Shown in pieces: positions 245 to 64,000 of a stretch of DNA of 64,000 nt. The translations under genes were made by a program, and so were the position numbers. The notes beneath the pieces are model-generated. The model ran no database searches. It was not told where the DNA came from and saw only the letters and a program-made list of their open reading frames with translations. This DNA comes from Flagellimonas oceani (GTDB taxonomy: Bacteria > Bacteroidota > Bacteroidia > Flavobacteriales > Flavobacteriaceae), in NCBI RefSeq assembly GCF_011068285.1, contig NZ_CP049616.1, positions 1,344,501 through 1,408,500 on the forward strand, written 5' to 3'. Every line of letters starts with the position of its first letter. The first letter of the stretch is position 1.

Positions 245-2629
245 ATGAGAATCATGATCAGAAAAATTACAGTGTTGTTGGTACTTCTCATTTCGTGCAA
301 CATTGCCGCACAATTAGTATCCAATGAAAGCGAAGAAAATGTGGATAATTGGCCTGAACGGGTCTATGATTTGACCATTGGTTACGAAACGGTCAACTAT
401 ACCGGAAAAGATGTGAAGGCCATGACGATCAATGGTGGTATTCCTGGACCCAATCTCGAATTCAACGAGGGCGAGTTTGCCATTATCAACGTAACCAATA
501 CGATGGATGTCGAAACCTCGGTACACTGGCATGGGTTGATACTGCCCAACTTCTACGACGGCGTACCTTACCTTACAACGCCACCAATTGAACCCGGCGA
601 GACCCAACAATACAAATTTGCGCTGAAACAGTCGGGCACGTATTGGTACCATTCCCATACGGGTTTACAGGAACAACGTGGTGTTTATGGCTCCATCCAG
701 ATCAATCCCAAAGAAACAAATCTTGAGTATGACAAAGATTTGGTACTGATACTTTCGGATTGGATGGATGAAAATCCCAAGACACAACTGAGAAACCTTA
801 AACGAGGCAATGAGTGGTACCTAATCAAAAAGGACCAGGTTCAAAGTTGGGACAAGGTAATCTCAAAAGGTGCGGTAGGTGCGAAACTAAAAATGATGTG
901 GCAGCGTATGCCCGATATGGCCATATTGGACAATTATTACGACCTGTTTTTTATAAATGGAAAATCTTCTAATGAATACCCTGATTTCAATCCCGGCGAA
1001 CGGGTACGATTGCGCTTCGTAAATGCGGCCGCAGCTTCCTATTTCTGGCTGACATTTGGTGGTAATGACCCTATGTTGGTCTCTGCCGACGGCCTTGATG
1101 TAGTGCCGGTAAAACAGAACAAGACCCTTATCGGTGTGGCCGAGACCTATGATTTTATAGTGACCATACCACAAAGCGGAAAACTTGAAATACGTGCCAC
1201 TTCTCAGGACGGATCTGGTCAGGCTTCCGCCTATCTAGGGACGGGCGATGTTTTGGAAGCCCCCACGGTACCTATACCCGACCTTATCAAACTAATGGAA
1301 AACATGATGTCGATGGACATGAAGATGGGTGCACCCGCGGCCAAATTCAATCCCTCCAAAAACGATTCCATCAAAGTGATGAAAAAATATGCGATGGATA
1401 TGGGCGGTATGAAAATGGACCATTCCAAAATGGATATGCAAAAAGAAGATCAAATGCAGAAGAATGACCAAAAGATGGAAGATGAAGGGGGTAAGATGAA
1501 AATGCCAAAGGATAAGACGGATCATGCCAAAATGGAGATGAAAGACGATAAAATGGATATGAAAATGGGCTATGTGCTGCCCGCCGACAAGGTCATTGGC
1601 GATGCCATGAAAACCGGGGGCAATCCGGAATTTAACTACAACTATCTCAAAGCACCCGGAAAAACGGTATACGAAGACAACAAACCTGTTAGGGAAATGC
1701 TGTTCAACCTTACGGGAAACATGAACCGTTACGTATGGAGCATCAACGGGGTTCCGCTTTCAGAAACCGATAAAATAAAAATTGAACAAGGCGAAGTAGT
1801 GCGCATTACTTTGAACAACCTGACCATGATGCACCACCCGATGCACCTACACGGACACTTTTTCAGGGTACTGAACGAACACGGCGAATATTCGCCCTTA
1901 AAACATACGGTCAACGTGGCCCCGATGCAAAAAGTGGTCATCGAATTCGATGCCAATGAATATGGCGACTGGTTCTTTCATTGCCACGTACTGTACCATA
2001 TCAACAGTGGTATGGCAAGGGTATTCAGCTATGACACCCCAAGGGATGAACGATTGAAAGGGTATCCCTTATCCAACCTGACCACCGAGGCCGACCATAT
2101 GTGGACATGGGGTGAGGTTACGGGTGCCAGCCACATGGGCGAGTTTTTTCTGACCACTACGAACATCCGAAACCAGTTCATATTGCGAGCGGAATATGGA
2201 TGGAACGAGAACTTGGAAGCCGAATTTACCTATGAACGATGGCTGAACAGTTATTTCCGTGTTTTCGGTGGGGTAAATGTCGAAAACGAAATGGAAGATA
2301 GTATGGATGAAATAGGCACCACGGGAGTAGTGGGTATCCGGTACTTCTTGCCATTGTTGATAGATTCTGATCTACGCATCGATAATAAACTACGGCCGAC
2401 GATTTCATTTTCGACGGCTACGATGATCTTTCAGAGACTCGCCCTTTTTGGCGAATACGAATATCAAATGGATTTTGGCTGGGTCAATGATTTTGAACCG
2501 GGAACCGATTTTGAACAAGAGCAGACCTGGCAAGTAGGATTGGAATATGTCCTGAGCAGAGATTTTTCCTTAATGGGCAGTTACGACAACCGTTTCGGTT
2601 GGGGAGGCGGACTTTCAATGCGATTTTAA
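245..2629 (+). CDS. Multicopper oxidase (CopA/PcoA type) fused to a C-terminal CopB-like outer-membrane domain
   Basis: 794 residues with an N-terminal signal peptide. The four copper-binding motifs are visible: HWHG near residue 94, WYHSH near 134, HPMHLHG starting near 531 and HCHVLYH near 579, so the T1, T2 and T3 copper ligands are intact. A Met/His-rich segment, with repeats such as MKMDHSKMDM, lies around residues 355-445 and resembles the Cu(I)-binding loop of CueO/PcoA. After the oxidase fold, residues from about 625 to the end read as alternating beta strands ending in a terminal Phe. The GEVTGASHMGEFF-like text there recalls CopB outer-membrane proteins. A normal CopA is about 600 residues, so this is a natural CopA-CopB fusion. 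The likely role is periplasmic oxidation of toxic Cu(I) to Cu(II). The gap from the TolC stop is 63 bp with no clear promoter, so co-transcription is likely. Confidence 0.92.
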   Translation: MRIMIRKITVLLVLLISCNIAAQLVSNESEENVDNWPERVYDLTIGYETVNYTGKDVKAMTINGGIPGPNLEFNEGEFAIINVTNTMDVETSVHWHGLILPNFYDGVPYLTTPPIEPGETQQYKFALKQSGTYWYHSHTGLQEQRGVYGSIQINPKETNLEYDKDLVLILSDWMDENPKTQLRNLKRGNEWYLIKKDQVQSWDKVISKGAVGAKLKMMWQRMPDMAILDNYYDLFFINGKSSNEYPDFNPGERVRLRFVNAAAASYFWLTFGGNDPMLVSADGLDVVPVKQNKTLIGVAETYDFIVTIPQSGKLEIRATSQDGSGQASAYLGTGDVLEAPTVPIPDLIKLMENMMSMDMKMGAPAAKFNPSKNDSIKVMKKYAMDMGGMKMDHSKMDMQKEDQMQKNDQKMEDEGGKMKMPKDKTDHAKMEMKDDKMDMKMGYVLPADKVIGDAMKTGGNPEFNYNYLKAPGKTVYEDNKPVREMLFNLTGNMNRYVWSINGVPLSETDKIKIEQGEVVRITLNNLTMMHHPMHLHGHFFRVLNEHGEYSPLKHTVNVAPMQKVVIEFDANEYGDWFFHCHVLYHINSGMARVFSYDTPRDERLKGYPLSNLTTEADHMWTWGEVTGASHMGEFFLTTTNIRNQFILRAEYGWNENLEAEFTYERWLNSYFRVFGGVNVENEMEDSMDEIGTTGVVGIRYFLPLLIDSDLRIDNKLRPTISFSTATMIFQRLALFGEYEYQMDFGWVNDFEPGTDFEQEQTWQVGLEYVLSRDFSLMGSYDNRFGWGGGLSMRF

Positions 2630-2632
2630 CAC

Positions 2633-3958
2633 ATGGGACAATACAAAAAAAATAGCCTGAGTTTGACCGGTGCCGTATCTCTAGGAACGGGGGTAATGAT
2701 TGGCGCAGGTATCTTCGCGCTGTTAGGGCAGGTAGCAGAATTGTCTGGTCAGTGGTTTCCCTATGCGTTTTTGCTGGGGGCCATTATCTCGGGTTTTAGT
2801 GCCTATTCGTATGTTAAGATGTCCAATGCCTATCCCTCTGCGGGCGGTATCGCCATGTATCTCAAGAAGATATATGGTAAAAGTGCATTGACAGCTTCCG
2901 GAGCGTTGTTGATGGCCTTGTCAATGGTCATCAACGAGAGTTTGGTTGCACGTACCTTCGGCTCGTACACTCTACAATTGTTCGATGTAGATGATAACAG
3001 TGTTTGGGTGCCCATTTTGGGGGTATTCCTGCTGATTGTCGCCTTTCTTATCAATATTTCGGGCAACAAAGTTATCGGAAAGGCCTCTTTGGTCATGGCC
3101 ATTCTAAAAATAGGTGGGATAGCCATTTTTGCCATAGGCGGTCTATGGGCCGCAGGTTTTTCATTCTCCGAAGTAGTTCCGTCCGAAAGTCTGACGGAAT
3201 ATCCAATCACTAATTATTTGGGAGCATTAGCTCTATCTATTTTGGCTTACAAAGGTTTCACTACAATTACCAATAGTGGCGATGAAATAGTCAAACCCAA
3301 TAAAAATGTTGGGCGTTCAATTGTCATTTCTTTGCTCATCTGTACGGTGGTCTATTTATTGGTCGCTTTTGCGGTCTCTTCCAATCTTTCGATAAACGAA
3401 ATCATAGCAGCGAAAGACTATTCATTGGCAGAAGCTTCCCGCCCCGCTTTTGGCAAGTATGGGCTTTGGTTCACAGTGGGTATCGCCATCATATCGACAA
3501 TTTCTGGTGTGATAGCAAGCATTTTTGCAGTATCCAGAATGACAGCAATGCTGACCGAAAAGGAATTGATTCCCCATGAGCATTTTGGTATGCCGGGCAG
3601 GCTTCAAAAACATATGCTGGTGTATACAGTAATTCTGGCCATAACCTTAACGGTTCTATTTGATCTTACGAGAATCGCTTCATTGGGTGCTATATTTTAT
3701 TTGATTATGGATATAGGAATCCATTGGGGAGTGTTTAAAAATCTTCGTAAGGATGTTAAGGCCAATCCTGCCGTTTTGATTACTGCTATTATTCTAGACG
3801 TAGTGGTTCTTGGGGCTTTTCTTTGGATAAAGGTAAGCAGTGATGTATTGGTCGTACTAGTGGCGGTCCTACTAATGGTCTTGATTTTTTTCGGAGAAAA
3901 ATGGTTTTTGAAAAGAAATGATAGTGATGAAAAAGAAGATTTTAAAAATGATGTATGA
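2633..3958 (+). CDS. APC-superfamily amino-acid permease-like transporter
   Basis: 441 residues and about 12 predicted membrane segments. The N-terminus has the APC hallmark GTGVMIGAGIFALLGQVAELSG, in which the unwound GxG(I/V) helix 1 binds the amino-acid backbone, followed by YVKMSNAYPSAGG, a second family signature. The start is 3 bp after the oxidase stop, so the two genes are surely one operon. The substrate cannot be read from sequence. Its placement inside a metal island could mean import of a metal-chelating amino acid, or may be incidental. Confidence 0.85.
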   Translation: MGQYKKNSLSLTGAVSLGTGVMIGAGIFALLGQVAELSGQWFPYAFLLGAIISGFSAYSYVKMSNAYPSAGGIAMYLKKIYGKSALTASGALLMALSMVINESLVARTFGSYTLQLFDVDDNSVWVPILGVFLLIVAFLINISGNKVIGKASLVMAILKIGGIAIFAIGGLWAAGFSFSEVVPSESLTEYPITNYLGALALSILAYKGFTTITNSGDEIVKPNKNVGRSIVISLLICTVVYLLVAFAVSSNLSINEIIAAKDYSLAEASRPAFGKYGLWFTVGIAIISTISGVIASIFAVSRMTAMLTEKELIPHEHFGMPGRLQKHMLVYTVILAITLTVLFDLTRIASLGAIFYLIMDIGIHWGVFKNLRKDVKANPAVLITAIILDVVVLGAFLWIKVSSDVLVVLVAVLLMVLIFFGEKWFLKRNDSDEKEDFKNDV

Positions 3959-3977
3959 ATCTATAAAAATTAGAAAA

Positions 3978-4535
3978 ATGAAAACAAAAGGAATTTTAAT
4001 GACAATCGGATTAATAGCAACGATGGTTGGCTGTAAATCAACTTTCAATGCCTCCGAGACCATGCAGGTAGATGAAAATAGAAATGCCATCTATCAAGAG
4101 ATTATCTCAAATCCGGTGCAGTTTGCCAATTTTATCAGTGAGGCAAGAAAGAATGAAGAGGCCAAAAAATTATTGATGAAAGCCCATATGGAGCAGATGG
4201 AATCTGGGGATATGAAAATGATGATGGACAAAAATCCCGAAATGAAAGAAAAAATGCAGGCCCATATGCAGAAGATGATGGAGAAGAATCCTGAAATGAA
4301 GGAAAAGATGCAGTCCAAAATGCTCGATAAGATGATGGAGAGTGAAAAGGGCCGTAAGATGTTGATGGAAAAAATGCACAAAAACGAAATGATGAAAAAA
4401 CAGATGAAGGAAAGAATGAAAAATATGATGGATGAGAATCCTGATATGATGGAAGAAATGATGCAGAAAATGATGGAAAAAAATCCAGAGATGATGAAAA
4501 AGATGAAAGAAAAAATGAAAAATAAAGGAGCGTAA
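3978..4535 (+). CDS. Methionine-rich lipoprotein with NPEM repeats, likely Cu(I)/Ag(I) binding
   Basis: 185 residues from the ATG at 3978. The frame is open upstream to 3918, but that would overlap the permease gene, and the signal peptide begins at 3978. A lipobox (TMVGC) gives a mature N-terminal Cys near residue 19. From about residue 75 the protein is a charged helix packed with Met, about 40 in all, with four degenerate repeats of the type MMxKNPEMKEKM, MMEKNPEM and MMDENPDM. Clusters of Met thioethers are classical Cu(I)/Ag(I) ligands. I know no characterised family with this exact repeat. The neighbours (copper oxidase, DUF302, DUF3347) support periplasmic copper buffering, which is inference. 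Confidence 0.8.
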   Translation: MKTKGILMTIGLIATMVGCKSTFNASETMQVDENRNAIYQEIISNPVQFANFISEARKNEEAKKLLMKAHMEQMESGDMKMMMDKNPEMKEKMQAHMQKMMEKNPEMKEKMQSKMLDKMMESEKGRKMLMEKMHKNEMMKKQMKERMKNMMDENPDMMEEMMQKMMEKNPEMMKKMKEKMKNKGA

Positions 4536-4592
4536 GCCTTTGAATACCGAGGTGGATTGAAAACAGAAAATAACTATTGAAATTCTACAATT

Positions 4593-4784
4593 ATGATGAT
4601 GTGGTGGTGGGTATTGATACCGGTCATTTTGGTGTTGGCCTTTTTTATGTATAACGGACGAAATAGCAGAGGTTCCAGGACCAAGGAAAATCCTATGGAA
4701 ATTCTAGACAATCGATTCGCCAAAGGCGAACTATCCAAAGAAGAATACGAAGAACAAAAACGAACTATTAACTCTAAAAATTAA
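4593..4784 (+). CDS. Small membrane protein with SHOCT domain
   Basis: 63 residues. One transmembrane helix at about residues 4-19 (WWVLIPVILVLAFFMY) is followed by a basic linker and a C-terminal SHOCT motif, LDNRFAKGELSKEEYEEQK (residues about 38-57). SHOCT domains are short helical oligomerisation modules, often at the C-terminus of membrane proteins. It lies 57 bp after the Met-rich lipoprotein and 4 bp before a DUF302 gene, in the same operon. No enzymatic role is visible. Confidence 0.8.
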   Translation: MMMWWWVLIPVILVLAFFMYNGRNSRGSRTKENPMEILDNRFAKGELSKEEYEEQKRTINSKN

Positions 4785-4788
4785 AACG

Positions 4789-5175
4789 ATGGAATATTAT
4801 TTCAACAAGACCCTTAACGAAGACTTTGATAAGGTAATCGAGAGAGTAACGGAAGAACTGAAAAAAGAGGGTTTTGGCATCTTGACCGAAATCGATGTCA
4901 AGGAAACCCTGAAAAAGAAACTGGATGTTGATTTTAAAAAGTACAAGATCCTCGGTGCCTGTAATCCGCCCTATGCCCATAAGGCACTGGAAGCCGAAGA
5001 TAAGATAGGTACCATGTTGCCTTGCAATGTAATCGTGCAGGACGTATCGAAAGGGAATGTAGAAGTGGCGGCGGTAAATCCAATGGCTTCAATGCAAGCA
5101 GTCGACAATGAAATATTGGCTGAAATCGCAAATGATATTACCGCCAAATTGGAAAATGTGATCGAGAAACTTTAG
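4789..5175 (+). CDS. DUF302 domain protein
   Basis: 128 residues covering one DUF302 domain. The signatures are YYFNKTLNEDFDKVIERVTEELKKEGFGILTEIDV, read in parts at the N-terminus, then KILGACNPPYAHKALE and the conserved LPCNV of the core strand. No signal peptide is visible, so it is probably cytosolic. The family has no settled function but recurs in metal- and sulfur-stress operons of Bacteroidota and Proteobacteria. It starts 4 bp after the SHOCT gene. Confidence 0.88.
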   Translation: MEYYFNKTLNEDFDKVIERVTEELKKEGFGILTEIDVKETLKKKLDVDFKKYKILGACNPPYAHKALEAEDKIGTMLPCNVIVQDVSKGNVEVAAVNPMASMQAVDNEILAEIANDITAKLENVIEKL

Positions 5176-5186
5176 AAGGGATAAAT

Positions 5187-5660
5187 ATGGAAAATAATAA
5201 GGGTAAAAGCGAATGGGTCTCGCAACAAAATTATTCAGAAAGTCAGAGTACCCCTTATTGCATTACGCGGAGGTACGGTAGTTTGACATTTGAGGAAACC
5301 GTACAAAACGTAAAAAATGGCATTAAAAAGTTAGGTCTTGACCTTGTTGGTGAATTTGACGTGCGCGAGTATCTCAGTTCAGATATGGAAAAGATGCCTC
5401 GGCACCTCATTCTAATGGTATGTGAAAAAGAAACTGCATTAAAACTGATTTCAAATGATATTCAAATGAGCGTTCTTTTTCCGTGCAATGTAACCATTAA
5501 GGAAGTGGAAAATAATACGATTATCGAAGTGTCGATAGAAGATACAGATTCGACTTGGTCTTCCGCAAAGAAGAAAGAAATAATAGAGGTGGCCAAAAAC
5601 ACAAAGAACATCTTGAAAAAATTGCTCGACACTATTGAACAGCAAAATGTAAAACTATAA
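5187..5660 (+). CDS. Second, diverged DUF302 domain protein
   Basis: 157 residues. The pattern matches the preceding gene: a YGSLTFEETVQNVKNGIKK-like start after a polar 27-residue N-terminal extension, LGLDLVGEFDVREYL, then LFPCNVTIKEV in the position of LPCNV. It lacks the conserved CNPPYAHKAL segment, which here reads VCEKETALKLI. This is a tandem duplicate that has diverged, and the two products could form a heterodimer. It starts 11 bp downstream of its partner. Confidence 0.82.
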   Translation: MENNKGKSEWVSQQNYSESQSTPYCITRRYGSLTFEETVQNVKNGIKKLGLDLVGEFDVREYLSSDMEKMPRHLILMVCEKETALKLISNDIQMSVLFPCNVTIKEVENNTIIEVSIEDTDSTWSSAKKKEIIEVAKNTKNILKKLLDTIEQQNVKL

Positions 5661-5681
5661 TTAACATCAAATTCAACAATC

Positions 5682-6311
5682 ATGAGAAAATCAAATGTAA
5701 CAACTGGAATTTTGGCCATGGCAATCATAACCCTATCGGCCACATCTTGCAAAGACAAGAAAAAAGTGCAGGAAAACCAAGAAGGTCACCAAACAGAACA
5801 AATGGAGGACAGCGGCCATATGGATGGCGCTATGGAAGACCATTCGCAAATGGACCATGACAACATGAATCATGGCGAAATGGCAATGATGTCATCTGAA
5901 GTCATCGCTGACTATCTGACGCTAAAGAATGCTCTTGTGTCCGATGACAAAGATGGGGCCGCAAAGGCAGGAGAAAAGCTTGAAGGCAGCCTAAAGAACT
6001 TCGATACGAGCAAATTCAGTGATGAACAGCAGGATGAGCTGAAAGACATTATTGAAGATGCCACCGAACATGCAGAACATATCGCGAAAAGTGACATCGG
6101 GCATCAACGTGAGCACTTTAAAACCTTGAGCAAAGATGTAGTCGATATGGTCGCCATTACTGGTACAGAAAATACTTTGTATGAACAATATTGCCCAATG
6201 TATGATAACAACAAAGGAGGTGCCTGGCTAAGCATGAATGAAGAAATCAAAAATCCATATTTCGGGGATAAGATGCTCACTTGTGGAAAAGTACAAAGGG
6301 AAATCAACTAA
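5682..6311 (+). CDS. DUF3347 lipoprotein (probable periplasmic copper-binding protein)
   Basis: 209 residues. The signal peptide ends in a lipobox (SATSC, Cys near residue 23). A His/Met/Asp-rich linker (repeats such as [14 protein letters not shown], residues about 40-72) precedes a DUF3347 domain. The domain ends in the signature CPM (Cys near 171), GGAWLS, IKNPYFG, then MLTCG. The CPM and MxxC elements look like a soft-metal site. DUF3347 domains commonly sit at the C-terminus of CusB-type adaptors in this phylum, as in the gene at 14383. The stop codon abuts the GTG of the next gene, so the two are translationally coupled. Confidence 0.88.
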
Positions 6312-56409: not shown

Positions 56410-59400
56410 ATGAAATACTCAAAAAAGAAGTACCTGGATTATTTGGTCAGGACGATTGAAGCACTCCACAGTCCTGAAAATCAATCCCATTTTTTCATCA
56501 ACAATCCAGGATTCGGAAATATCTTCGACATTCTAAAAAATGATGCCTACCGGGCACAGCTCATTAGGATATTGGAGAAATATTATGGCGAAGAATACAC
56601 AAACACCATTATCGGTAGCCTAAAAAAAGGATCGCTTAATTCTTTTTACACCCCCGAGCCGATTATCGATGCAATATCCCACTATTTAAAAACCCAAGGG
56701 TCCTTTACTCCTAAAACCATTCTTGAGCCAAGCGCCGGTAACGGGCTGTTCATTCGGGAATTGTTGAGGCGCTATCCCTCCGCGAAGTTTACCGCTTTTG
56801 AAAAGGAGATACTAACCGTACGAATATTGGAGCACAACTTCAGGTTCCGGCAGCGGGTCAAAATCTTCGGCGTTCCCTTTGAAAACCTTTCCCGGACCGA
56901 TGCTGCGAAAAGCTATGACCTGGTCATCAGCAATGTGCCCTTTGGGGACAATAAAATATTCGACAGCGGTCTAATGGGCCATCCGTTACAAACCAAGATT
57001 TCCAGAAATATCCATTCCTATTTTGTCTACAGAAGTCTTGAATGTCTAAAACCTTCAGGTGTTTCCATTTTGATATGCACCAAGAATTTTATGGACAGGA
57101 CCAAATACGTTCCAATTCGGGAGCATATCATCAAGCGAAACAATTTTATGGGTGGGGTGCGTCTGCCCGATACTACGTTTTCCAAAGAGAACACGGCTAT
57201 TGTAACGGATATTCTGGTTTTCCAAAATAACCGGCGTATTGAAACTTCGAACGAACAGAAGAAAATAAACAGCTTGTTTGCCAACAGTTCAGAGCAAACC
57301 GTAGGGAAAAATAATGTTCAGATAAACGACTACTATACCGAATATACCTCCCAAATTATTGGAACTATCGAAGAAGGCGGTCTCTACAACAATGCGGACT
57401 ACACCGTAAAAAGCGATAAAGGCTTGGCGCATATCGCTCTTGAAATCAAAGCGTTGATGGCAGGATTTACCGTGCAACCAAAGGCGCAAAAAAAGGCCAC
57501 AATTCCGGCCATTGCCCCAAAACCTAAAGAAACCTCGCAGGCGGAAGAAACGGCCATCGGTATTTCCGGTGCTGACGATCCCGAACTTAAACCTGGAAAT
57601 CTGACCATCAAGCAACAAAAACTCTATAAAGTAGAAGAGGAAAACGGTTTACGGTTATTGAAAGTAAAGCCCCGGGAGTTCGATAGGCTGTCAAAAATAA
57701 TAGCGCTGCGGGATACCTATTTCAAATTTTTACGGGCACCCGAAGAACAGATCGACAAGGTAAGGGACGAGCTAGACTATCAATACGATGCCTTCAATTT
57801 CCAGTACGGGCGGCTCCATGACAAAGCCAACTATCCCTTTGTGACCTTGGATATTCAGGGGCCTTTGATTTTGGGGCTGGAAACACCGAAAGACGGAAAC
57901 TTTATCAAATCGGAGGTTTTCAATAAATCATTCCGGTCGATTTCAAAAGAAAAGCCGCAAGAGCCGAAGAAAGTGCTCAGCTTGGAAGATGCCATTTATT
58001 ATTCCCTGAACAAATTCAATCGAATAAAATTGGATTCCCTGGTTTCGAACACGGGCATGGAACAGGACGAAATCATAAAAAAGGCTTTGGATCTGCAACT
58101 ATTGTTTTTGGACCCGAAGGAGCAGGGATGGGAACTGGCCCCCAAGTTCCTGTTTTTATCGGGAACCATTTACGAAAAACTGAATGCCTATCGCAAAAAC
58201 GATTTTGGGGAATATCAGTCCTATGTGGACAAATCCTATATCGAACGTACTGTTGTTGCCTTGGAAAAGGTAAAGCCACCGATGACCCCTTACGAGGATC
58301 TGGATATCAAACTCCATGAACCGTGGTTTCCCATTGAATATACCCAAGCCTTCATTTTCGACACCTACCGCTCCTTGGTACATATCGCCTATAACGAGAG
58401 TACCTCCAAGTACATGGTCAAAATCGAAAAGACGGATTATGAGTATATCAAAAAATTCAGCGTGCGTACGGAACATCGCTATTACAATTTCAAAGAGATA
58501 TTGGAAGGCGCATTGAACTCCACCATACCCTACGTCACAAAAGGCTCGAAACAATATAAGCGCACGGACAAGGCGAAAATGCAGGAAATACGCATCAAGT
58601 TCGACCTTATTTACAAGGAGTTTACCGCATACATCTTGGGCAAGCCTGAAATCAAGGCGCAATTGGAGCGTATTTTTTACAATACCTACGATGCCCAGGT
58701 CCATCCGAAATACGACGGTGACTACCTTCATTTTGAAGGGCTGCAATATTTTACCCCGTACAAAAGCCAAATGGATACGGTTGCGGGAATCATCGTAAAC
58801 CAAGGCCTTTTGGTCAACAAGGAAGTCGGTTTTGGAAAAACCTTGGATATTGCCCTTACGACCCAGAAACTAAAGGAGCTGAACCTCTCGGAAAAGACAT
58901 TGGTCATCGGTCTTCGCTCCACCGTGGTGCAATTGGAACGGGAGTTGTTAAATGCATTTCCCACGATGAAACTATTGGTGGCCCATGATAAGGTAGTAAA
59001 CGGGAAGACAAAGCGAGACACCTTTTTTAAGAAAATAAAAAATGGCCGGCATGACGTCGTGCTGATGAGTCATGACACGTTTAAGTTCATACCCCAATCC
59101 CCCGAGATCATCCATGAAATCATAAGCGAGGAGCTGGCAAACCTTGAACGCGACCTTAGCGTAATCAACGAAAATAAATACGATGTAGGCAAAAGGGTGC
59201 TCAAAGGTCTGGAGAAACGAAAGGAAAACCTGAACGTAACCTTGGAGCAGGTCTATTACCAGATCAAAAGCAAACAGAACGATGCCATCGATTTTGAGCA
59301 GATGGGGTTTGAACATATTATGGTAGATGAATCCCACAAGTTCAAGAACCTGATGTACACAACAAGGCACCACAGGGTTGCGGGGCTGAATACCAACAAA

Positions 59401-61314
59401 GGCTCCGAACGCAGTAAAAACCTTTTGGTGGCCATCCGAACACTGCAGAGGGCAAAGACAAGGGATTTTCAGACCACTTTTCTATCGGGTACGCCCATTT
59501 CCAATTCCATTACGGAGGTCTATGTGCTGTTCAAATATCTAATCCCGCATAGAATGGAACAGATGAACATTACATCATTCGACCAATGGGCACAGGTCTT
59601 CGCCAACAAATCCTATGAATTTGAACCTACCGTCTCGGGGGATTATAAAGTTCGCGAACGCTTTCGTTCGTTCAAGAAAATGAAACTGTTGTCCTCACTG
59701 TACAATGAGATTTCCATAATTGTCAACGGAACCACGCACCAAATCGATAGGCCCAAAATGCAGCTCGATGTGCACACGCTAAAACCCACGGCGGCCCAAT
59801 TGGAATATTTTGAACAGATCAAGGAATTTCTAAGAACGGGGGACAGCAGCCTATTATATGGGGATAAGGACTATACGGAAGACCAAAAAAGCGCCCTCTC
59901 ACTGATTGCCTTGCACCACATGAGAAACGCCTCCATAGACCCAAGGATGTTGAACCAGAACCTAGAAGATCCGGGCGATGCCAAACTGCAGAAAATAGCC
60001 TCCGAGGTATATGACACCTATAGGAAAACGGACGCTTTTAAAGGTACACAGGCCATTTTTTCGGACCTGGGCGTACCGAAAGACACATTTAATATTTACG
60101 ATGAACTCAAACGCATTCTGACCGAAGAATTCGATATTCCCAAAGAAGAAGTGGTATTTATCCATGATTTCAAGACCGACAACAAGCGGCTGGAATGCTT
60201 TAAGCAAGTGAACGAAGGCACTTATAGGGTCATCATCGGTTCTACTGAAAAGTTGGGGACCGGTACCAATATCCAAGAAAGATTGGTACGCATCCATCAC
60301 GTGGACATTCCCTATCGTCCGACGGACATCGACCAACGAAACGGTAGGGGAGTCCGTAAAGGCAATATTGGCGCAAAGCAGCATTTTGGGGACAAGGTCG
60401 TTGTTTCCTTTTACATTGTCGAAAACTGTACCGATGCCCTCATGCTCAACAACGTCAACATCAAGAAAAATTTTATCGAGCAATTGACCAATGGCACCAT
60501 ACAGTTCAATCGGCTGGATATGGGCGCGGTAAACGATGAGGGCACCATAGATTACAAAACGCTCTTGGCGGTCGCAAAGAACGACCCGTTGTATCTGGAA
60601 AAAGAGGAATTGGGCAAAGAATTGGACGAACTGGAACTGGAACGATCCATTTTCAAGAAGAACCGTTTGGAGGCCAAGAACAATATCGCCTTTTATGAAA
60701 CCGAACTGACAAGAACGACAAAGAATATTGACAAACTTGAAAAAGACCTGTCCTTGTGGACCACGCTGCAAGAAAAGGACGTTTACTATAGTGCATTGGG
60801 AAAGGCACTTGATAGCCCCGATACCATGGATGCCAATATGTTGGGCCAAATACTTAATTCGAGGTTACAGGCCAAACGGGAAGAAGTTGGCCAGCATACC
60901 ATTATGACTATATCCAATGCAAGACTGGTTCTTGACGTAGAAGACAAATTGCACCACCGCTTATTGGTACTTACCCCGAATGCCTCCTATGGTTATGGTT
61001 CCAAGAGAATCGTGGCCAACTGGCAAAGCCTGACCGACTATGTTTACAATGCCCTATCCAAAATCCCGAAATCCCTCTTGGCACAAAAGGAACATCTGGC
61101 CGAGTACAAAAAATCCATAAAGGCCAACCGGAAAGTATTGGAACTTGAATTCGACAAGACCGAAAAACTGGCATTGGTTCAGAAAAGGCTCGTAGAAATC
61201 AATACCGACCTTGATGAAAAGTACGATGCCGAACCGGAGGAAAAAGAAGAGAAATGTAACTCACAAAGTGCACGGTCACAGAATATAAACATGAACCAAG
61301 AAATTTCAATGTAA
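56410..61314 (+). CDS. Giant N6-adenine methylase-SNF2-like helicase protein
   Basis: 1634 residues. An N-terminal gamma-type methylase domain has motif I EPSAGNGLF (residue 106) and motif IV NVPF (175-178) in place of NPPY/F. After a linker with a low-complexity part (residues about 350-400), a helicase core follows: motif I GFGKT (807-811), motif II DESH (973-976), SGTPISNSITEVY (motif III) and QRNGRGVRKG (motif VI, from 1309). Then come coiled coils (ELDELELERSIFKKNRLEAKNN). The layout resembles phage P1 DarB and similar large anti-restriction proteins carried by ICEs, which modify or protect incoming DNA. Motif IV with Val in place of Pro may alter catalysis. Confidence 0.9.
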   Translation: MKYSKKKYLDYLVRTIEALHSPENQSHFFINNPGFGNIFDILKNDAYRAQLIRILEKYYGEEYTNTIIGSLKKGSLNSFYTPEPIIDAISHYLKTQGSFTPKTILEPSAGNGLFIRELLRRYPSAKFTAFEKEILTVRILEHNFRFRQRVKIFGVPFENLSRTDAAKSYDLVISNVPFGDNKIFDSGLMGHPLQTKISRNIHSYFVYRSLECLKPSGVSILICTKNFMDRTKYVPIREHIIKRNNFMGGVRLPDTTFSKENTAIVTDILVFQNNRRIETSNEQKKINSLFANSSEQTVGKNNVQINDYYTEYTSQIIGTIEEGGLYNNADYTVKSDKGLAHIALEIKALMAGFTVQPKAQKKATIPAIAPKPKETSQAEETAIGISGADDPELKPGNLTIKQQKLYKVEEENGLRLLKVKPREFDRLSKIIALRDTYFKFLRAPEEQIDKVRDELDYQYDAFNFQYGRLHDKANYPFVTLDIQGPLILGLETPKDGNFIKSEVFNKSFRSISKEKPQEPKKVLSLEDAIYYSLNKFNRIKLDSLVSNTGMEQDEIIKKALDLQLLFLDPKEQGWELAPKFLFLSGTIYEKLNAYRKNDFGEYQSYVDKSYIERTVVALEKVKPPMTPYEDLDIKLHEPWFPIEYTQAFIFDTYRSLVHIAYNESTSKYMVKIEKTDYEYIKKFSVRTEHRYYNFKEILEGALNSTIPYVTKGSKQYKRTDKAKMQEIRIKFDLIYKEFTAYILGKPEIKAQLERIFYNTYDAQVHPKYDGDYLHFEGLQYFTPYKSQMDTVAGIIVNQGLLVNKEVGFGKTLDIALTTQKLKELNLSEKTLVIGLRSTVVQLERELLNAFPTMKLLVAHDKVVNGKTKRDTFFKKIKNGRHDVVLMSHDTFKFIPQSPEIIHEIISEELANLERDLSVINENKYDVGKRVLKGLEKRKENLNVTLEQVYYQIKSKQNDAIDFEQMGFEHIMVDESHKFKNLMYTTRHHRVAGLNTNKGSERSKNLLVAIRTLQRAKTRDFQTTFLSGTPISNSITEVYVLFKYLIPHRMEQMNITSFDQWAQVFANKSYEFEPTVSGDYKVRERFRSFKKMKLLSSLYNEISIIVNGTTHQIDRPKMQLDVHTLKPTAAQLEYFEQIKEFLRTGDSSLLYGDKDYTEDQKSALSLIALHHMRNASIDPRMLNQNLEDPGDAKLQKIASEVYDTYRKTDAFKGTQAIFSDLGVPKDTFNIYDELKRILTEEFDIPKEEVVFIHDFKTDNKRLECFKQVNEGTYRVIIGSTEKLGTGTNIQERLVRIHHVDIPYRPTDIDQRNGRGVRKGNIGAKQHFGDKVVVSFYIVENCTDALMLNNVNIKKNFIEQLTNGTIQFNRLDMGAVNDEGTIDYKTLLAVAKNDPLYLEKEELGKELDELELERSIFKKNRLEAKNNIAFYETELTRTTKNIDKLEKDLSLWTTLQEKDVYYSALGKALDSPDTMDANMLGQILNSRLQAKREEVGQHTIMTISNARLVLDVEDKLHHRLLVLTPNASYGYGSKRIVANWQSLTDYVYNALSKIPKSLLAQKEHLAEYKKSIKANRKVLELEFDKTEKLALVQKRLVEINTDLDEKYDAEPEEKEEKCNSQSARSQNINMNQEISM

Positions 61315-61466: not shown

Positions 61467-62270
61467 TTACTCCTTGACCATTCTCTCCGTAAAACGCCTT
61501 ATAGGCGATTGATTTTCATTTCGTTCTAACCAATCATTAAATAAATTCAGCTCAGAAGCTCCACAGTTAATTACATATTCAACACCCATAATTACAAGAA
61601 CGAAATAATATATGCCCGGTTCGATGATTAAGAAATCCAATTCGTGAAGTACTTCGTAGGGTTTAGGATTGAATATAGGGTCTACAAACCGCGCCTCTTC
61701 GGAATAAATTCTACGCTGACTATAAATCCATTGTTCTCCTTTTCCAAACCGGGCATATTCACGTAATGGGTCTAATTCGGACATATCAATAACTTCATTC
61801 AGATTTGACTGGTTATGACCTGCTTTTAAAGCAAATAACTCCAGAGCGGTCTTTGCAAGAAAACGGGACATTTGGTAGTTTTTGTTTTCAGGCATATCCA
61901 CCACTTCAAACATTAATTTATTGACCTTCTTGTTGCGTATTAAGTTTATTACTTTAGTATCATCGCCTCTAAAACCCAAACTATCCCCATCCATATACAT
62001 ATCAAACCAGCCACCATCTTTATGCGGAAATAGGGTTTTGTATGGGATGTTACGCTCTTTTTTAGATTTGATATTGTTTCTAAATCTTACATTTTGGAAA
62101 TACTTCATCTCCAATAATGGTTTCTCAATTTTCACGGCAAAATATTGGTTACATTCATCACATACCACACCAGGTCGAAGAATCAATTCTTTATTGCCTA
62201 ACGATTCTGGAATGATATGCTGAATACTTGAAGACCTGCCGGACGATTTCTTGCAGAAAATACAACGCAT
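61467..62270 (-). CDS. HNH endonuclease
   Basis: 267 residues. The N-terminal HNH nuclease has a zinc finger, CIFCKK (Cys3, Cys6) paired with CDECNQYF (Cys37, Cys40), around SSIQHIIPESLGNKE, where His18 is the general base. A long C-terminal helical and beta region (about 60-267) is of unknown fold. It is the last gene of the three-gene operon, 11 bp after the preceding stop. Confidence 0.9.
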   Translation of the reverse strand: MRCIFCKKSSGRSSSIQHIIPESLGNKELILRPGVVCDECNQYFAVKIEKPLLEMKYFQNVRFRNNIKSKKERNIPYKTLFPHKDGGWFDMYMDGDSLGFRGDDTKVINLIRNKKVNKLMFEVVDMPENKNYQMSRFLAKTALELFALKAGHNQSNLNEVIDMSELDPLREYARFGKGEQWIYSQRRIYSEEARFVDPIFNPKPYEVLHELDFLIIEPGIYYFVLVIMGVEYVINCGASELNLFNDWLERNENQSPIRRFTERMVKE

Positions 62271-62281
62271 AATTCAAAAAA

Positions 62282-63103
62282 TTAAAATAAGCTAGTTTGT
62301 ATTTCAATACCCGGTGTGAAAGTTCCAATTATCATAAATGGATTTTTAGAACGATAATGAAATGCCTTGGTTGTGCCCAAATACAAATGCAAATCTTTTT
62401 TCAAAGCAAAATAGTCGAAGTATTTCTGCCTGACTTTCTCAACGGCAACCGCTTCATTTCCTTCTGCTGCCGCAAGTGTGTTTCTAAATAGTGCTCCAAT
62501 TTCCCAATCTTCAATCATCATTGTACTTGACACCCCGTTTTCATCTTCAATTACATAAGAGAATTTATATGGAAGTTTTGCCACAACCTCGAAGGGTTCT
62601 TCTTCCATTTCGAATAAATTCCCTTGTTCTTGTAGCGCTTTTTGTTCATCTAATTTTTTCTTATCCCATTCGGCCGAAACTTTCTCGACTTTGAAATCGG
62701 TTACCTTAGCAGGTTTAAAGACGGCTAGGGATGTGCAGATGTCCTTATCGTGTGCTTCGGCTATAAGTGCCTTGATATCCGTATAAACTTTTCCAAGAAC
62801 AATTTGTTTGCGTTTATACCAATTGCCTTTGGTATCAATTGTATTCAGAAGTGTAATCGGTGTGTCAATAGTGGCCGGTCGAAAACTTTCAGGTCTAAAG
62901 TCCTTGTCGTTATTTACAATATCTAATTCAATCCATTGGTATTTTGTATACTTCTCGTCCTTTTTTAGCTTCCTAAATGGTATAGGATATAGTCTTATCC
63001 AAGAACCGTCTTCTAGAAAACCTGCCGTACACACAAGTTCTCCGTATTTCGCCGAAAGGGAAGGGTAGGTTTTTACAGTGATAAGTACTTTTGTAAGCGC
63101 CAT
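62282..63103 (-). CDS. Two-domain (dual OB-like) protein of unknown function
   Basis: 273 residues, no signal or membrane segment. The N-terminal half is beta-rich (VLITVKTYPSLSAKYGELVCTAGFLEDGSWIRLYPIPFRKL), as expected for an OB fold. The second half, after a charged helix (KKKLDEQKALQEQGNLFEMEEE), is also beta-rich (PYKFSYVIEDENGVSSTMMIEDWE) and ends in KNPFMIIGTFTPGIEIQ. I recall such proteins beside DUF488 genes, and describe them as dual-OB by appearance; this is not confirmed. It lies 4 bp after the DUF488 gene. Confidence 0.75.
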   Translation of the reverse strand: MALTKVLITVKTYPSLSAKYGELVCTAGFLEDGSWIRLYPIPFRKLKKDEKYTKYQWIELDIVNNDKDFRPESFRPATIDTPITLLNTIDTKGNWYKRKQIVLGKVYTDIKALIAEAHDKDICTSLAVFKPAKVTDFKVEKVSAEWDKKKLDEQKALQEQGNLFEMEEEPFEVVAKLPYKFSYVIEDENGVSSTMMIEDWEIGALFRNTLAAAEGNEAVAVEKVRQKYFDYFALKKDLHLYLGTTKAFHYRSKNPFMIIGTFTPGIEIQTSLF

Positions 63104-63107
63104 TTTT

Positions 63108-63992
63108 TTAAATATGCTTCAAATCGTATTTAAAATTAGGAGACTTCTTCAAATTTTCAGCTAGGTGGGTTCTATGGCATTGACAGGTATCGGCCTCAAA
63201 ACAAGTAAGGGCAATACGCCTGTGTTTTTCCAACAAACTGAGTATAAAATTTTGACTTTCAATGGCCTCTTTTAGTACGGTCGCCTTATATTCATCGAAA
63301 AGCAAATCATAGTCTTCTTGCGTATTTAATTCTCGCCTTTTACTAGAATCAATGCCTACATCCGGAATATGGATGTACTCAATTCCCAATCGACTACAAA
63401 AACTACTTAAAGACTTTTTGCTAAAACCGTATTTCTGGCTCAAGGGGTTTCTTCTGACGTCTACAAGAAGATGGACATTGTTTTTTAGTAACCTGTTTAA
63501 GTATTCCTCTAGCGAAATACCTTCATACCCAATAGTAAATAAAACTGTAGATTCATCATTATGACGTGCAGTTACAACTCTTTCAAAAAACTTTTCTGGA
63601 AGAATTCTCTCTGCTATAATGCTATTGGTGGCATAATACGGAAAATTGATATATGTATGTTTTGTAATGACATCCGTTTTCATGCTTCCGTAAAGCTCGA
63701 AAGTTTCGTTGACAAGTTGCTTATCTACTGGGGTAAGTTCTTTATAATATTTCTTCTTTACATTAAGACTATAGGTTTTCTCTGATTCAACTAACCAATC
63801 ATGTTTTACCATAGCCGCCAAATCCGCCTTCAGAGAATACGAATAGCACCCATATCGATAAGGAACGAAATCATAGTTGGGTTCTTTCTGCATTTGGGTC
63901 AACAAAAACATAAGTTTTTGAAGACGAGTGCTTTCCAATCCATCTTCAAACTTTTCCAGTAAAGCAAAAACCAACTTTCTTCGATAAAACAT
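63108..63992 (-). CDS. Panacea-like plus DUF488 protein
   Basis: 294 residues. The N-terminal part (about 1-125) matches a Panacea/DUF4065-like fold: LQKLMFLLTQM, FVPYRYGCYSYSLKADL. The DUF488 domain (about 148-290) has LFTIGYEGISLEEYLNRL, LLVDVRRNPLSQKYGFSKKSL, and ALTCFEADTCQCHRTHLAENL, with the conserved Arg pair and the CxxE...CHR ending. DUF488 is thought to act on nucleic acids or bases, but no activity is settled. The start at 63992 is 9 bp from the window edge; the operon may extend further. Confidence 0.88.
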   Translation of the reverse strand: MFYRRKLVFALLEKFEDGLESTRLQKLMFLLTQMQKEPNYDFVPYRYGCYSYSLKADLAAMVKHDWLVESEKTYSLNVKKKYYKELTPVDKQLVNETFELYGSMKTDVITKHTYINFPYYATNSIIAERILPEKFFERVVTARHNDESTVLFTIGYEGISLEEYLNRLLKNNVHLLVDVRRNPLSQKYGFSKKSLSSFCSRLGIEYIHIPDVGIDSSKRRELNTQEDYDLLFDEYKATVLKEAIESQNFILSLLEKHRRIALTCFEADTCQCHRTHLAENLKKSPNFKYDLKHI

Positions 63993-64000
63993 GATGTAAA

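Follow-up and report, generated by a model that had tools for sequence, protein, structure and literature searches.

The 64,000-nt stretch of the Flagellimonas oceani genome analysed here (the window; positions 1344501-1408500 of the 4.61 Mb contig NZ_CP049616.1, assembly GCF_011068285.1, named closest relatives Allomuricauda/Muricauda) carries a cassette of three minus-strand genes, the first two of which form a conserved unit encoding a DUF488 protein (gene 1) and a predicted dual OB-type protein (gene 2). This two-gene unit is conserved across phyla, keeps its active-site-like residues intact, exchanges the N-terminal heads of its DUF488 protein and lies in a defence-type neighbourhood; the third gene, for an HNH nuclease (gene 3), is best seen as a local accessory of the pair. 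We propose, with a probability of about 0.4, that genes 1 and 2 make up a mobile PDC-M19-type module, in which gene 2 would sense single-stranded DNA (ssDNA) or DNA ends and the DUF488 enzyme would process those ends against invaders.

Gene 1 (63108..63992, minus strand, 294 amino acids [aa]) matches the PADLOC model PDC-M19A (PDLC04505) with an E of 1.5e-124 over residues 1-294 of 294, and gene 2 (62282..63103, minus strand, 273 aa), 4 bp away, matches PDC-M19B (PDLC04508) over its full length (E 1.1e-122), the two lying adjacent as a pair; gene 3 (61467..62270, minus strand, 267 aa), separated from gene 2 by 11 bp, matches no M19 model. The open reading frames (ORFs) thus confirm the order and spacing given in a preliminary description of this DNA, whose label of an undescribed system had to be dropped because the pair is already the PADLOC candidate PDC-M19. 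It is a listed candidate still awaiting characterisation, with an HNH variant of local occurrence, and its core is not new as a label. PADLOC PDCs are presented in PMC12988326 as unpublished, mostly unvalidated candidates from "guilt by embedding", and "PDC-M19" is not mentioned in the open-licence PMC literature (a scope outside which preprints fall).

Co-occurrence limited to close relatives, which according to the preliminary description would speak against a common system, is not what is seen for genes 1 and 2. When genome contigs were scanned with gene 2, the best 80 of 163 relatives were kept as loci (the genome_contigs set, mostly Bacteroidota; loci are numbered L), and gene 1 lies directly upstream of gene 2 in 77 of these 80, with a median gap of 3 bp; in the remaining three, gene 2 lies no more than 31 bases from the contig start or, in L074, is cut by it. 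Further loci came from a phylum sample (20), from IMG/VR (45, i.e., 17 and 38 from two scans, minus nine contigs present in both and L189, which carries a gene 2 copy 100% identical to that of the Gordonia phage) and from plasmids and phages (17, i.e., 16 of 23 matching plasmid records and one of seven matching phage records). Once five loci whose gene 2 lies at the edge of a contig and one without a recognisable gene 2 (L110) had been set aside, 155 of the 156 readable loci showed a DUF488 gene no more than 1.5 kb from gene 2, adjacency being counted on the full ORF list. Merging the gene 2 proteins at 98% identity reduced 171 loci to 149 clusters, of which 143 have a DUF488 neighbour, five are at a contig edge and one lacks the neighbour; DUF488 thus adjoins gene 2 in 143 of the 144 merged readable clusters. 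The exception is Sulfolobus pSOG2, where a 168-aa neighbour was ruled out as DUF488 by alignment, as was a 163-aa neighbour in S. shibatae; by eye both neighbours may be nuclease-like, and a PDB search with the 168-aa protein found nothing.

The gene order itself varies: the DUF488 gene (A) precedes gene 2 (B) in 110 clusters, the two are convergent in 30, and B precedes A in three, which include the two Cyanobacteria. The convergent genes, which often overlap, include loci of Proteobacteria, Actinobacteria and Gordonia phages. Shared ancestry alone would hardly account for an A-B link that is kept in three arrangements. Moreover, the sequence distances of A and B are correlated (r = 0.90 over 138 pairs, the highest of 1000 permutations reaching 0.21), also within the genome_contigs subset (0.60, 71 pairs); these figures use the 138 of 162 loci in which both sequences are long enough, with near-identical copies left unmerged, and shared descent contributes to them. 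The distribution of the pair is patchy, with 20 of 395 genomes of the phylum sample and seven of 99 relatives carrying it, our own genome included in both.

The DUF488 domain of gene 1 (PF04343, residues 161-280, 63153..63512) is recognised by Pfam well above cut-off (E 1.9e-25). Eight of its residues (D178, R180, G213, C264, E266, C272, H273, and R274) are identical in 138 of 138 DUF488 partners, which bears out the conserved C-terminal Cys/CHR set announced in the preliminary description. Five of them fall in the active-site-like segment T263-C264-F265-E266...C272-H273-R274 (63171..63206), which, in the predicted structure of gene 1, sits at a strand end and helix start. With the DUF488/rhodanese-phosphatase superfamily, gene 1 shares PF04343 and fold matches to PTP-type phosphatases; it differs from other DUF488 enzymes by its fused head and its fixed dual-OB partner. 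We know of no demonstrated DUF488 activity, and the abstract of Burroughs and Aravind 2023 is said to predict DNA-end processing by a DUF488-containing clade in conflict systems. Within the open-licence PMC literature naming DUF488, neither a function nor this gene pair was found in any title or abstract opening listed, and no paper there joins DUF488 with OB-fold and anti-phage terms. For DUF4326, a domain of the same superfamily, an action on terminal phosphates of ADP-ribose products has been proposed (PMC9503650). The PADLOC models PDC-M45B and PDC-M45C also match the DUF488 proteins of window 63108-63992, L158, L159, L161, and L162, and PDC-M45 is possibly a sister system of PDC-M19.

Pfam gives no match above cut-off for gene 2 (best E 0.11), and no PDB chain resembles it in sequence at E up to 10. 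Its structure is predicted, with a mean pLDDT of 85, as two tandem OB-type domains (residues 1 to about 100, 62804..63103, and about 101-269, 62297..62803), in agreement with the "dual-OB-like" protein first described. Comparison of predicted structures gives a likeness to OB-type folds of ssDNA binders, with low overall TM-scores. The modelled tandem domains would be shared with ssDNA-binding proteins of the RPA/TEBP/Teb1/LEF-3 type, from which gene 2 differs by the lack of sequence similarity, the low TM-scores and an invariant residue set of its own: R37, D68-R70-E72-S73, W95, R98, and D199-W200-E201 in a 13-sequence cross-phylum alignment. C25 is invariant in a 50-sequence alignment, where Q160 and Q269 are at least 90% conserved; across phyla C25 is conserved at 90% or more and no Gln is. 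The ARPP family, for which an absolutely conserved Cys and Gln are described (PMC9503650), therefore does not fit gene 2. Gene 2 is split or truncated in five of the 20 genomes of the phylum sample, a number in which two share the same gene 2 and which may include assembly errors. Split or truncated copies were seen in L095, L105, L106, L108, L110, L013, L056, and L086; the gene 1 ORF is full length in L013, L056, L086, L095, L105, L106, and L108.

In the proposed module, gene 2 would, judging from its fold, bind ssDNA or DNA ends arising as foreign DNA enters or replicates, and gene 1 would be recruited to the same DNA by gene 2 together with its own N-terminal head. A presumed catalytic cysteine of DUF488, most likely C264 with E266 and C272-H273-R274, may then act on the DNA end, the substrate being a phosphate, a sugar-phosphate or a modified base, and this processing would block the replication or repair of the invader. 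In Allomuricauda, the HNH nuclease would ride along and may add DNA cutting.

The genomic surroundings of the pair bear on this proposal in both directions. In the genome_contigs loci, up to two genes of at least 90 aa were taken on each side of the pair, genes cut by a contig end being dropped and the near-identical or related loci L011-L013 skipped, which gave 137 downstream and 126 upstream genes; the scan covered 135 and 126 of them, two long ones being omitted for their size. At E <= 1e-10, 276 PADLOC families were matched downstream and 202 upstream, versus 60 among 125 control genes (125 of 303, from 20 fixed stretches of 19 other genomes), all these counts being of families rather than of genes. 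Among the matches listed, the neighbours include restriction types I, IIG and III, Cas1, Cas12a, DRT, AbiD, AbiLi, KwaB, and ZorD; the best control match is SngC (E 6.9e-68), followed by helicase-type families such as BrxHI and HamB. The accumulation of defence genes suggested earlier thus holds for the neighbourhood of the pair. In L036, a gene for a Type ISP restriction-modification enzyme (1103-6019, 1638 aa) lies 9 bp upstream of genes 1-2, and the three look like one operon.

Other carriers point elsewhere. Since many copies lie near SSB, RadC, RecT, ParB, or integrase genes, the main rival is a housekeeping role in mobile elements: gene 2 would be an ssDNA or end binder and DUF488 a repair enzyme for DNA ends or nucleotides, together aiding the establishment or maintenance of plasmids, prophages or integrative and conjugative elements (ICEs), with no anti-phage role. 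Several observations favour this view over action against invaders. Conjugative plasmids of Rhizobium, Pseudomonas, Burkholderia, and Arthrobacter carry the pair, which in Sulfitobacter adjoins SSB and RadC genes and in Pseudochrobactrum has RecT/PD-(D/E)XK genes close by; it occurs in a temperate Gordonia phage (L155 3971-5397), where gene 2 (gp43) and the convergent DUF488 gene (gp42) lie between the immunity repressor and the integrase; its DUF488 is fused to ParB on a Sulfolobales plasmid; and the region studied here is itself ICE-like. However, restriction, CRISPR, retron/DRT, and Abi families are over-represented among the neighbours in the mostly Bacteroidota genome_contigs loci, the pair occurs sporadically, and a quarter of the carriers of the phylum sample (the five of 20 above) have a broken gene 2; we consider housekeeping somewhat unlikely. 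In the Gordonia phage, gene 44 ("immunity repressor") had been a candidate DUF488 partner and was rejected, as its alignment shows no DUF488 and the true partner is gene 42; gp42 and gp43 are both annotated as hypothetical, and six further Gordonia phage records match gene 2.

The N-terminal head of gene 1 raises another possibility. As proposed in the preliminary description, this domain is Panacea-like: it aligns with four Panacea proteins (from four of the five loci of a six-frame PF13274 search) with an hhalign probability of 84.8 and an E of 6.5e-6, against 0.1 and 0.2 for two controls. The Panacea model itself, PF13274, is not matched by gene 1 in Pfam at E up to 1, and the six-frame search of our own genome at E up to 0.001 found none. 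By fold, the domain resembles the C-terminal domain of DarG. Panacea antitoxins neutralise adjacent toxins and have a conserved GPV motif (PMC8832971), and the pair could accordingly be a toxin-antitoxin system in which the N-domain neutralises gene 2, or the HNH protein, as toxin. We regard this as improbable: outside Bacteroidota the pair lives without the Panacea-like domain, its DUF488 protein being short or headed by helix-turn-helix (HTH) or ParB domains; the GPV motif is absent from gene 1, which has G-C-Y at this place (aligned stretch Y-G-C-Y-S; G48 is invariant in a 51-sequence alignment); and the predicted structure of gene 2 looks like that of a nucleic-acid binder.

Nor does the likeness to DarG extend to a DarTG system, as gene 1 has no macrodomain match (Pfam, E up to 1), genes 2 and 3 have no DarT match, and the gene on the other side encodes PRTRC E. 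The DarG domain is said to mimic negatively charged ssDNA (PMC11481870), whereas the N-domain of gene 1 carries a net positive charge in each of the 51 aligned homologues (mean +7.1, range +2 to +13); a DarG-type ssDNA mimicry, considered as a candidate role for this domain, is weakened for this reason.

Elsewhere the heads of DUF488 are of DNA-binding types: Cro/C1-type HTH on two Streptomyces plasmids, HTH_59 on a viral contig and, on the Saccharolobus shibatae plasmid pBEU9E1 (L163 2933-3982), ParB_N and HTH_ParB in one chain with DUF488, 76 bp before the gene 2 homologue. An archaeal DUF488-HTH fusion of the ParB-CTPase fold binds CTP according to PMC12704722, and may be a protein other than that of pBEU9E1. 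With such heads, gene 1 could act chiefly in the regulation of transcription or copy number, gene 2 being its co-regulator. This is very improbable in our view, as many DUF488 partners are headless, with fewer than 45 residues before the domain (among loci with a partner, 24 of 43 from IMG/VR and 11 of 16 from plasmids and phages), and the invariant part of the protein is the set of active-site-like DUF488 residues.

Gene 3 was initially presented as a possible effector. It does encode an HNH_5 nuclease (PF14279, E 4.4e-12), and the intact Cys4 zinc finger and His reported for it are confirmed, with C3, C6, H18, C37, and C40 conserved without exception in the 26 family members aligned (zinc-finger/HNH motif, including N41, at 62109..62264). 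With 1109 proteins at E <= 0.001, the family is a large one in the protein database. It is rare in three samples of 395 genomes each, all including our own: two genomes of the order sample (E <= 1e-20), two of the phylum sample (E <= 1e-10) and one of the class sample (profile, E <= 1e-30) have it. It lies near gene 2 in seven of 80 loci: five of Allomuricauda/Muricauda, which keep the same 11 bp gap, and two of Mucilaginibacter, with HNH on the strand opposite to gene 2. Outside the genus, the 12 HNH loci read (six viral, some with short flanks; two genomic, with flanks of about 1.5 kb; and four of eight plasmid matches) all have other neighbours, with neither DUF488 nor gene 2 in the DNA examined; the closest HNH proteins among the matches listed (e.g., of Aequorivita, 72% identity) are known as proteins only and fall outside this count. 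HNH was therefore rejected as a core part, and as the defining effector. In one of the viral loci (L211 5001-6589) two HNH_5-type genes stand in tandem, and on a Rhizobium plasmid (L217 2194-4801) the HNH relative adjoins a DUF262-HNH gene.

Some loci nonetheless suggest a defence system of all three genes, with HNH as its effector. In the genus sample, eight of 69 genomes have an HNH family match, six with a close form and two with a distant one; all six of the former also carry gene 2 (split in genome G040), the two with the distant form lack it, and gene 2 occurs without HNH in G020. The part of L013 that aligns to the window region is limited to a block of about 2.9 kb with all three genes, so that the three genes moved together there, which speaks against the accessory reading of HNH. 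On the other side, only N-terminal HNH traces remain just downstream of gene 2 in L030 (E 1.9e-10), L016 (E 2.8e-7) and, weakly, L015 (E 0.002), beside full-length gene 1 and gene 2 ORFs. The preliminary description held that HNH genes found more often with other partners would tell against the system; since HNH is near gene 2 in so few loci and has other neighbours in every outside-genus locus read, this is indeed what is observed, and we hold the three-gene system to be quite unlikely. Septu (PtuAB) does not fit either: the HNH protein matches PtuB at E 0.0026 only, and genes 1 and 2 match no PtuA model, in a PADLOC scan that covered genes 1-3, the adjoining 1634-aa gene being known from Pfam only (SNF2/methylase).

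This adjoining gene (56410-61314, plus strand) is convergent to the cassette, its product combining an N6-methylase-like part (Eco57I, MTS) with SNF2/helicase parts according to Pfam; L020 carries, at the corresponding place, a 1620-aa gene with related DNA. On the other side, past window position 64000, genes for PRTRC system E and B (B below its own cut-off) and ThiF adjoin the cassette (L002 6808-10073). Beyond them, about 4.9 kb from the cassette, lies a tRNA-Met gene (L002 11430-11504), a plausible insertion site of the element. The region is ICE-like, and the cassette may adjoin an ICE end as first described. At least 11.7 kb including the cassette are 100% identical in two other Allomuricauda genomes, and a third genome, Muricauda sp. 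CP2A, is 99.99% identical to the window over the 11.6 kb compared; this near-identity of L010, L011, and L012 suggests a very recent transfer.

Taken more broadly, and tentatively, the pair could be a cross-domain DNA-end surveillance machine made of a dual-OB sensor and a DUF488 cysteine enzyme, whose heads (Panacea/DarG-like, Cro/C1-type HTH, HTH_59, or ParB) would be swapped to re-aim it and to which nucleases such as HNH would be bolted on locally; if true, this would give DUF488 a defined biochemical system. The proposed mechanism makes the untested PADLOC label PDC-M19 refutable, with DUF488 in place of HNH as candidate effector. The pair is a good target for study because its genes are linked widely, irrespective of their order, and because its heads are swapped; a near-obligate partner that stays with DUF488 in three gene orders, in bacteria of different phyla, in phages, and on an archaeal plasmid, provides a concrete handle on this domain.

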